In this document: positions 44,434-47,071 of the stretch, in pieces
Layout: every line of letters starts with the position of its first letter
Numbering within the stretch: position 1 is the stretch's first letter
Assembly (NCBI GenBank): GCA_022843265.1
Contig: JALHNZ010000025.1
Coordinates: 1-47,071 of the forward strand
DNA: 47,071 bases
Direction: 5' to 3'
Source: Gemmatimonadaceae bacterium
GTDB taxonomy: Bacteria; Gemmatimonadota; Gemmatimonadetes; Gemmatimonadales; Gemmatimonadaceae
The notes under the pieces: model-generated
Databases searched by the model: none
Told to the model about the DNA's origin: nothing
Seen by the model: only the letters and a program-made list of their open reading frames with translations
Program-made: the position numbers and the translations under genes

Positions 44434-44703
44434 ATGACCAAGCTCAAGCAACGTCCGCGTCGTGACGTCGCGCAGCCTTCGCCCTACGAAGAGGCCCGCG
44501 ACGAGATGTTTCAGCACATCATGCAGTGTGGTGTTATCGGGTCACATCCCGACGATCAGAAAGAATGGTTCGACAACACAATGCAGTACATGACGTCGCG
44601 GTACCCGGAGTTGAATGCTGTGCAGGTGAAGGATTTGCGGACTCTCGGTGAGCGCTTTGCGCAGCCGCCGCGTGCGCAGACTCAGGAAGCCGTCACCGCC
44701 TGA
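44434..44703 (+). CDS. Small hypothetical protein, 89 aa
   Basis: Not recognised. From ATG 44434 the protein is hydrophilic with an N-terminal basic patch (KLKQRPRRD) and a compact helical core containing EMFQHIMQCGVIGSHPDDQK, then a Tyr/Met-rich segment and a disordered Ala/Thr/Gln tail. A strong intrinsic terminator follows 34 nt after the stop, supporting expression. A longer frame from 44284 adds 50 residues of non-coding character. The 220-nt gap before it contains an IR CACTG/CAGTG and no obvious promoter. Confidence 0.65.
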   Translation: MTKLKQRPRRDVAQPSPYEEARDEMFQHIMQCGVIGSHPDDQKEWFDNTMQYMTSRYPELNAVQVKDLRTLGERFAQPPRAQTQEAVTA

Positions 44704-44737: not shown

Positions 44738-44771
44738 AAAGCCCTCGCTTGCAGCGGGGGCTTTTTGTTTT
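44738..44771 (+). terminator. Strong intrinsic terminator
   Basis: AAAGCCCTCGCT (44738-44749) pairs with AGCGGGGGCTTT (44753-44764) with one G-U pair and a 3-nt loop, followed by a T-run and GTTTTA. It ends the 89-aa gene and, read from the other strand, lies just after the stop of the convergent phosphatidyltransferase gene. Confidence 0.9.
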
Positions 44772-45324
44772 ATTCGCCGACCCGTTGTTCTGTGGTGGGC
44801 GCGGTGCGCTCGCGCCAGAGCATGAGTGTGTAGTCGGTCGTGGCCACGACGCTAATCACGAGTGACAGCAGGACGAGCGGCGTGACATAGCCTGGCGCGA
44901 GAAGCACCGACAGAAACGCGGTGAACTGGAGTGCGGTCACCACCTTGCCGGGCCAGCGCGCCCGAAACGGTATCGCGCGCAGCCAACTCACATTGCGCGC
45001 GACAAACCAGCCGATCAGACTCATCACGTCCCGGAACAGCAGGGCGGCGGCGTGCCACGGCAACAGCAACCCGTCAACCAGAAACTGGATCACCACCGCG
45101 AGCACGAACGTCCGATCAGCGACCGGGTCAAGCAGCGCACCAAAACGCGACGTGACCTTTTGTCGCCGTGCGAGCCACCCGTCGAAAAAATCGGTGAACG
45201 TCGCGACCACCAGCACCGCAACCCGGGCCGGCACCGCGTCCACGGCCAGAAAGCCGATCGCCAGCGCGAATCGAGATCCGGACACCAGATTCGGCAGGCT
45301 GAGATACGTGGAACGGTCGGTCAT
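44770..45324 (-). CDS. CDP-alcohol phosphatidyltransferase
   Basis: Integral-membrane enzyme that transfers a phosphatidyl group from CDP-diacylglycerol to an alcohol such as glycerol 3-phosphate in phospholipid synthesis. The 184-aa protein contains the full family signature D-x2-D-G-x2-A-R-x8-G-x3-D-x3-D at residues 45-70 (Asp 45, 48, 66 and 70), all catalytic acids present, and several membrane helices. It resembles PgsA in length and helix pattern, but the acceptor is not certain. The gene is alone; its divergent neighbour starts 68 nt away. Confidence 0.88.
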   Translation of the reverse strand: MTDRSTYLSLPNLVSGSRFALAIGFLAVDAVPARVAVLVVATFTDFFDGWLARRQKVTSRFGALLDPVADRTFVLAVVIQFLVDGLLLPWHAAALLFRDVMSLIGWFVARNVSWLRAIPFRARWPGKVVTALQFTAFLSVLLAPGYVTPLVLLSLVISVVATTDYTLMLWRERTAPTTEQRVGE

Positions 45325-45391: not shown

Positions 45392-45760
45392 ATGGTCCCT
45401 TCGGTACGCGAGTCTGTGTCGTCTTCCCACGCCCACCTGGTCGCGGAGTTTCACGACGTGCCCGAGGAGTTGCTAGGGGACGCGTCGCGCCTCGGTGGCG
45501 TACTGGTTGCGGCCGCCGGGGCGGCCGGGCTGCATACGCTCGGTGCGCCGCTTGTGCGCACGCGTGCGCCTCACGGCGTTGATGCCATGCTGCTGCTCGA
45601 GGGTGGTCACGCCGCGCTGCACACGCACCCGGAACGCTCGGTGATCCTCGTCGACCTGCTGGCGCCGTTGCGCTTTGATCTGGTGCGCGCGTTTGATGTG
45701 TTGTCCCGTCGATTACTGCCCGGCGAAGTGCGCGCCGAACGCCTGTTGCGCGGCGCGTGA
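45392..45760 (+). CDS. SpeD-like protein lacking the pyruvoyl-forming serine
   Basis: A 122-aa protein resembling S-adenosylmethionine decarboxylase proenzyme (SpeD), which makes the aminopropyl donor for spermidine. SpeD-like features are the HAHLVAEFHDVPEELL start and the EGGHAALHTHPERSVILVDL region (70-89), which aligns with the canonical ESH-LS-IHTWPE motif. The Ser that self-cleaves to form the pyruvoyl group is replaced (Glu 70-Gly 71-Gly 72-His 73), and the conserved Cys of DxFTCG is missing, so it cannot be a normal decarboxylase. The stop overlaps the next ATG (TGATG), linking it to a polytopic protein. Family assignment is moderate. Confidence 0.6.
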   Translation: MVPSVRESVSSSHAHLVAEFHDVPEELLGDASRLGGVLVAAAGAAGLHTLGAPLVRTRAPHGVDAMLLLEGGHAALHTHPERSVILVDLLAPLRFDLVRAFDVLSRRLLPGEVRAERLLRGA

Positions 45761-47071
45761 TGCTGGCGCGACTTGGTCTGTTGCCACTGGTTGTGGCTGC
45801 GCTCGTCCTGGCGTGGAATGTCACGCTCTCCGGCTGGATTGCGACGCGACGTGAAGGCGCCTCGTGGTTCCGCAACCTCACGGCACTGGCGGGATTGCTC
45901 ATTGCGCCCGCTGCGGTGCTTGCGATTGCCGCATCAACCGACACCGGGGCGCGGACCATCACTGGCGTGGCGTGGCTCTGGCCGGTGACCTGCGTGCTGA
46001 TGGTGGCACAAGCAATCGCCGCCACGGCGGGGCGACTGGTGTCATTGTCCGTGGGTGTGCCCATCGTGTTCTACAACGTGCTGCTCGCGCTGGTCGCGAT
46101 TGGCGATGACCAGGTGTTGCGATCGGGATACGCGCCAGATGTACTGCAAGGGCTCATTGCCGCGCGTGACGCCGTGCTCGGCGTGGTGAGCGGACGCGCC
46201 GCTTTGGGATCACCACTGTCGGTGTTGATTCCGTTGATTGCGCCGGCGTATCCCGCTCGCTGGAGATCCAGTGCGTTTGTGCGCGCGGTGCTTGTGCTAT
46301 ACGCGGCGGCAACGCTCACATTGCTGGTCATGGAGTGGCCGCGCGGCATTGGTGCGGTGCGCAGCTACGATGCCTCTGCGCGCACGCTCGCCCCGCGTGA
46401 CGCACGCAGCTTTGCACTTGGCTTGCGACTCCTCCCCGACATTGCGGGCCTGCCAGACGCACGCGCGGTGCGTACAGGTGCAAGGCTCTATGACCGACTC
46501 AATCCCGATGCACTGCTGGTCTCGCTGAACGCATCGGCGGTACGATCGTCAGGCCTCGACTCACTCGTGCGCGTACTGGCGCCGTACCGCAGTGACAGCG
46601 TGCGCCTGATCGTGGCGCTGTCGTTTACGCGCGAAGATGCGATCGGCGTGCGCAACGCGCCCCAGCTCGCGAGTCGCCTGCGTCTTGATGCATTGCAACG
46701 CGTCACGGAGGCGCTGCGTCCGAACATCGTGATCCCCGCGCTCCCGCCGGCGTTGCCCGGTGTGTTGTTTACGCCAACAGTGTCCACGCTGTGGTGGCAG
46801 CAGCATCTTCGAGAGGCCGCGCGCACTGTACAGCGCGCGCGCCCGCAAACGAGTGTGATGTGGGTCGCCACCCGATTTGATGCGGCGGACAGTGTGATGC
46901 ACGCGTGGGCCACCGACAGCACCTCACCTGTCCAGCTCGTTGGATTTACACCCTTGCCGAGCTTTGCCGGGCTGGCGTCAGTCGACGCGCGTTTGCGTGT
47001 CGCCGATCGCTGGGTCGCAGCGCATGGTGCCGGAGCGCGTGCGCATTGGATGTTCATGGCGGGACTGCCGC
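45760..47071 (+). CDS. Polytopic membrane protein with extracytoplasmic domain (partial)
   Basis: Open frame from ATG 45760 to the right edge (at least 437 codons). Predicted membrane helices lie at about 3-23, 39-60, 69-90, 93-114, 150-165 and 172-192. They are followed by a large soluble region with alternating helix and strand segments (DALLVSLNASAVRSS, VRLIVALSFTRED, TSVMWVATRFDAADSV) that could form a TIM-barrel-like domain; no catalytic motif is recognised. It starts by TGATG overlap with the SpeD-like gene. The C-terminal end is outside the window. Function unknown. Confidence 0.65.
   Translation, partial: MLARLGLLPLVVAALVLAWNVTLSGWIATRREGASWFRNLTALAGLLIAPAAVLAIAASTDTGARTITGVAWLWPVTCVLMVAQAIAATAGRLVSLSVGVPIVFYNVLLALVAIGDDQVLRSGYAPDVLQGLIAARDAVLGVVSGRAALGSPLSVLIPLIAPAYPARWRSSAFVRAVLVLYAAATLTLLVMEWPRGIGAVRSYDASARTLAPRDARSFALGLRLLPDIAGLPDARAVRTGARLYDRLNPDALLVSLNASAVRSSGLDSLVRVLAPYRSDSVRLIVALSFTREDAIGVRNAPQLASRLRLDALQRVTEALRPNIVIPALPPALPGVLFTPTVSTLWWQQHLREAARTVQRARPQTSVMWVATRFDAADSVMHAWATDSTSPVQLVGFTPLPSFAGLASVDARLRVADRWVAAHGAGARAHWMFMAGLP

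Follow-up and report, generated by a model that had tools for sequence, protein, structure and literature searches.

A SpeD homologue without the self-cleaving serine and the catalytic cysteine is conserved at a fixed locus in two Gemmatimonadota families

The window, by which we mean the whole 47,071-nucleotide stretch of Gemmatimonadaceae DNA analysed here, carries a gene for a homologue of SpeD, a member of the AdoMet_dc superfamily (PF02675), in which both the self-cleaving serine and the catalytic cysteine have been lost. Sequence comparison and computation show that this Ser-less protein retains the SpeD fold, belongs to a single clade, is encoded at a fixed locus, is under purifying selection and occurs independently of canonical SpeD and ordinary speE. 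From this we infer its function, and favour, with some reserve, the reading that the protein has been repurposed as a non-catalytic SpeD-fold module for binding or assembly. The coordinates of the relevant features are given in Table 1.

Table 1. Features of the window around the Ser-less SpeD-like gene (Tm, Thermotoga maritima numbering)
Feature	Positions	Strand	Remarks
89-aa conserved protein (c1), MTKLKQRPRRDV...	44434..44703	+	No Pfam family; syntenic marker, kept across the order
CDP-alcohol phosphatidyltransferase (PgsA-like)	44770..45324	-	Divergent conserved neighbour marking the locus
Ser-less SpeD-like gene	45392..45760	+	122 aa plus stop; ORF, profile, alignment, model, fold match
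Helix 1 (residues 31-44), proposed docking surface	45482..45523	+	Outward face changed from polar to Gly/Ala/Leu/Val
Gly71-Gly72-His73 replacing Tm Glu62-Ser63-His64 (pyruvoyl site)	45602..45610	+	Alignment
His77, equivalent to Tm His68 (processing/catalysis)	45620..45622	+	Kept in 42/43 Ser-less homologues
Pro92 in place of the catalytic Tm Cys83	45665..45667	+	Cys in 0/43 homologues
Downstream gene c8, 6 TM plus TIM barrel resembling clan GH-A glycosidases	45757..47071	+	Runs off the contig

The open reading frame reported in a preliminary description of this DNA is real, and its product has the length of a class 1b SpeD. Pfam PF02675 (AdoMet_dc) matches residues 15-121 across the entire profile (1-107 of 107) at 61 bits, above the curated cut-off of 25, while the score against TIGR03330, the SpeD equivalog, is 47.3 bits, under the cut-off of 75.65 that marks a functional SpeD. 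A phmmer search of PDB sequences with the window protein matched the T. maritima and Aquifex SpeD proteins. An AlphaFold2 model built on 11 natural homologues (mean pLDDT 91) has the SpeD tertiary fold: its top matches in the PDB are the T. maritima SpeD structures 1vr7/1tlu/1tmi (TM 0.86-0.90, rmsd 1.2-1.4 Å, Z 19.1-19.5), and the next best after true SpeD is the N-terminal domain of human spermine synthase (3c6k; TM 0.57-0.60, Z 10.7). The preliminary description had called the protein SpeD-like and named a lack of fold similarity as grounds for giving up that assignment; the similarity is strong.

When the window protein is aligned with T. maritima SpeD (TM0655), Tm Ser55 corresponds to Asp64, His68 to His77, Trp70 to His79, Glu72 to Glu81, Asp79 to Asp88 and Cys83 to Pro92, and the position of Ser63 is occupied by Gly72. 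The pyruvoyl serine and the catalytic cysteine are thus missing, and the processing/catalytic histidine is present. It had been noted previously that EGGH replaces the ESH of the cleavage site; this is correct, yet the Glu of EGGH aligns with Tm Ser61 and not with Glu62, which is lost in the Ser-less family. The HTHPE segment (residues 77-81) does remain, as does the overall length. Among 43 sampled Ser-less homologues, drawn from two families (f1 and f2) of the same Gemmatimonadota order, position Tm63 is Gly in 28 and Cys in 15 but Ser in none, and Cys at Tm83 is found in 0/43. The 14 comparison sequences have Cys at Tm83 without exception and Ser at Tm63 in 13 cases, the fourteenth being one Rubrivivax protein. 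The earlier statements that the catalytic Cys region is gone, and that no known route leads to a pyruvoyl cofactor, are supported. Judged by these alignments, identical losses in 43/43 sampled homologues are more than chance.

Other residues of the pocket are kept in the Ser-less clade: His64 in 43/43, His68 in 42/43, Asp79 in 40/43 and His7 in 39/43. With His64 invariant and His68 and Asp79 almost so, the pocket could just as well point to new chemistry: the retained residues, together with a mostly basic Tm47, would serve a pyruvoyl-independent enzyme, perhaps with a metal; Tm63 is solely Gly or Cys, as if a small residue were required beside the pocket. New chemistry with the retained histidines is the strongest rival to a non-catalytic role. 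We nevertheless consider it unlikely, given that Ser-bearing SpeD conserves His64 and His68 just as strongly, so that they may be structural, that some members (L009, L090) carry Arg at the His68 position, and that candidate substrate or pathway genes are absent from the locus.

The residues at Tm70 and Tm72 bear on the suggestion, made in the preliminary description, of a SAM-binding regulator. A regulator binding SAM or a nucleoside would have kept the substrate site and lost the chemistry; the SpeD fold is indeed retained, and about half of the members have Asp or Glu at Tm72. The conservation of Glu72 is gone, however (Glu in 11, Asp in 11, Ala in 10, Ser in 6), and the aromatic residue at Tm70, present in 14/14 Ser-bearing sequences, persists in a minority of the Ser-less ones, which there have mostly Val, Leu, Ile, Ala or His. 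In addition, the locus shows no consistent linkage to a regulator or methyl-cycle gene. On sequence grounds the suggestion appears unsupported, and we regard a regulator of this kind as distinctly improbable.

The 15 Cys63 homologues raise the question of self-processing by another nucleophile. Since their Cys lies exactly at the Ser63 position and His64 is kept, they might cleave by an N-to-S acyl shift that the Gly members have lost. The window protein, which has Gly, could not do so; the Gly members are the majority and in Gemmatimonas are under strong selection, Cys83 is absent, and Ser55 is retained in just 11/43. Cys-based processing seems to us highly improbable.

A sequence search of 60 relatives gave 28 matches, one of which (G027) lay in a spurious frame and was dropped, leaving 27 genomes with the Ser-less protein. 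When 298 genomes of the phylum were searched with a profile, members of the family scored at least 87 bits and came from f1 and f2 only, with a clear gap to everything else, at about 70 bits or less. Below the gap lie four distant relatives (L101-L104; 57-70 bits) from family f9 of the same class, in which the RESH motif and the Cys are intact; these genes sit at another conserved locus, adjoining c68. A maximum-likelihood tree separates the Ser-less sequences from the others by a branch supported at 99/97, the bootstrap being not fully settled. A profile search of genome contigs returned at least ten family members and one Rubrivivax SpeD among the matches listed, and no plasmid-borne relatives of the Ser-less gene were found when looked for. 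A contig (L097) is titled Candidatus Kuenenia stuttgartiensis; its genes are of Gemmatimonadaceae type and it is apparently identical to a contig of family f1 (G232:C1, 89302 bases), so that the title looks wrong.

The SpeD of the Rubrivivax MAG (L100:6001-6378) reads AEWH, with Trp in place of Ser and the Cys kept. It was considered as a second Ser-less family and rejected, because nine relatives retain AESH; it represents an isolated substitution or a sequence error.

A decaying copy of SpeD might well have lost, as here, two catalytic residues and the Glu preceding the serine. Within Gemmatimonas, however, dN/dS of the SpeD-like gene is 0.03-0.19, some pairs being close to saturation at synonymous sites, compared with higher values for its neighbours c2 (0.31) and c8 (0.30). 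The losses are common to the whole clade and the locus is conserved, a picture that contrasts with the lone Ser-to-Trp change in Rubrivivax. Decay is refuted by the low dN/dS together with the clade-wide fixation of the losses, and we give it next to no credence. The original proposal of a repurposed rather than decayed gene is borne out, and no close relative retains the Ser.

Nine of the 60 relatives were found to have canonical SpeD, and these nine are also the only ones with speE of the ordinary class (117-127 bits). No Ser-bearing SpeD was detected in 19 of the 27 genomes with the Ser-less gene, and 17 of these 19 are at least 90% complete. Because these 17 near-complete genomes carry the Ser-less gene without Ser-bearing SpeD or ordinary speE, we conclude that the Ser-less protein does not serve polyamine synthesis as an enzyme and that prozyme-like activation is not its general role. 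For an inactive paralogue that activates the canonical SpeD alongside it in the cell, trypanosomes offer a precedent (PMC5201418), and the window's own genome does carry a canonical SpeD; nevertheless, 19/27 genomes have no Ser-bearing SpeD at all to activate, and in the loci examined the two genes are not neighbours. Co-occurrence thus leads us to reject this as a general role, and very little probability attaches to it. A second PF02675 match in one relative (G038) is a Ser-bearing SpeD of another type. The canonical SpeD region of the window's genome (G000:C62:137-5471) includes a long protein of 498 aa that has a spermidine synthase domain, and the SpeD gene adjoins an SPFH/Band 7 gene, two DUF4178 genes and a DUF350 gene; a second genome of the family (G020) has similar gene sizes in the same order.

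These findings have a practical side. A generic Pfam AdoMet_dc annotation would call the Ser-less genes SAM decarboxylases, and spermidine synthesis would then be predicted in genomes in which neither Ser-bearing SpeD nor ordinary speE was found. Catalytic residues that were lost once, in a family then conserved mostly without active SpeD, show that the fold can be kept for a purpose other than polyamine synthesis.

In both f1 and f2 the SpeD-like gene lies downstream of the 89-aa gene and the divergent PgsA-like gene and is followed by convergent M16 peptidase-like and TPR-like genes, labels given from their sequences and not by family search. In f1 the next gene is usually c8, of ~500 aa and without a Pfam family, whose start mostly lies no more than about 60 nt away and often overlaps by 4 nt; it is directly downstream in 19 distinct f1 loci. 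The overlap reported for the window is real, amounting to 1 nt if c8 starts at ATG 45760 and 4 nt if it starts at GTG 45757, and the C-terminal remainder of c8 is found on another contig of the same genome (G000:C5:2-325). Sequence searches with c8 against Pfam and the PDB gave nothing useful, and only the fold search was informative. Its AlphaFold model (pLDDT 78) has about six long N-terminal helices, taken by us to be transmembrane, and after them a TIM barrel matching clan GH-A glycosidases (GH1, GH5 and others; Z about 19-21). Enzymes of clan GH-A have a catalytic Glu pair at the ends of strands 4 and 7. When the alignment of c8 homologues was read against the model, no conserved Glu was seen at these strand ends, and c8 may therefore also be non-catalytic.

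The two genes had been suggested to form a two-gene system. They are indeed frequent direct neighbours in f1, often with the 4-nt overlap, but each occurs without the other: c8 is found at the same spot without the SpeD-like gene in 16 loci of ten genera, and family f2, part of genus g20 and the relatives G003, G005 and G009 have the SpeD-like gene with no c8 beside it. An obligate pair is therefore rejected. In a subclade of f2, a DoxX gene lies downstream of the Ser-less gene, with a 4-nt overlap in all six loci (L053, L055, L107, L109, L110, L113). The Ser-less gene is thus repeatedly coupled to a membrane-protein gene, albeit to unrelated ones, c8 in f1 and DoxX in the f2 subclade; nor is a membrane partner universal, as several Ser-less loci have no membrane gene directly downstream. 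A link with the cyclic-nucleotide-binding gene c17, often adjacent upstream, was considered and dropped: the 60-genome search revealed many genomes with c17 and without the SpeD-like gene, and no c17 in Gemmatimonas.

In the SpeD protomer, helix 1 lies on the outer side of the sheet. At helix positions 35, 36, 39, 40 and 44, a polar residue is found in 46-62% of the Ser-bearing sequences but never (0%) in the Ser-less clade; on average the helix has 3.3 polar residues in the former group and 0.3 in the latter. As helix 1 is outside the sheet and its polar residues have given way to small or hydrophobic ones, the comparison suggests a new packing surface, either for a partner or for self-assembly; the change could reflect self-oligomerisation.

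Putting these observations together, we propose that a class 1b SpeD gene lost its self-cleaving Ser and catalytic Cys once, in the ancestor of the two families, and would then have been kept as a non-catalytic protein outside polyamine synthesis. The product would stay an uncleaved SpeD-fold chain, probably a dimer as its relatives suggest, and would act as a binding or assembly module docking through its small-residue, hydrophobic helix 1. Likely partners would be membrane proteins, namely the 6-TM/barrel protein in Gemmatimonas and its family and DoxX in part of the sister family, and a small ligand may bind to the conserved His and Asp residues of the former pocket, which would make the protein a sensor. 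The membrane-docking and ligand-reading parts of this mechanism are put forward more weakly than the rest. In its boldest form, the proposal is of a SpeD fold rebuilt into a free-standing bacterial protein that acts as sensor or assembly factor of membrane proteins and whose pocket histidines read a small molecule while its hydrophobic helix docks on differing polytopic proteins; this we hold to be possible but doubtful.

Inactive SpeD folds are also known as the second half of eukaryotic AdoMetDC. What is already known, then, are dead SpeD folds as fused domains or as eukaryotic partners of active SpeD. The open literature, searched with subscription papers outside its scope, yielded no free-standing bacterial Ser-less SpeD family independent of active SpeD, and no paper linking Gemmatimonas with SpeD.

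The Ser-less protein resembles class 1b SpeD (T. maritima TM0655, 1vr7/1tlu/1tmi) in fold, length, His64, His68 and the HLxAEF start, at 26-27% identity. It differs in that its family is without Ser63, Cys83 and Glu62, has mostly lost the aromatic residue at position 70 and has a hydrophobic helix 1. Repurposing of class 1b SpeD homologues has been described for SpeDA and SpeDC, SpeD-derived arginine and ornithine decarboxylases recognised by an adjoining second SpeD or by their presence in genomes without speE, and expected to have Ser63, His68 and Cys83 intact (PMC10407285). As pyruvoyl enzymes these differ from the Ser-less family, which falls outside SpeDA/SpeDC because Ser63 and Cys83 are missing.

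Like the AdoMetDC prozyme of trypanosomatids (PMC5201418), the Ser-less protein is a catalytically dead SpeD-fold paralogue kept by selection; the prozyme, however, is a class 2 (two-repeat) protein that activates a partner SpeD, and most Ser-less genomes have no such partner. A bacterial SpeD domain with active-site residues lost is found in a SpeD fusion of Victivallis vadensis, whose degenerate C-terminal SpeD domain undergoes no self-cleavage (PMC10407285), although there the domain is fused to an active SpeD and the Ser-less protein is encoded by a separate gene at a different locus. The closest functional precedent is the SpeD-like N-terminal domain of human spermine synthase (3c6k), which shares the fold. 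In spermine synthase this domain is associated with dimerisation (PMC11203672) and is fused to an aminopropyltransferase, whereas the Ser-less protein is free-standing and bacterial.
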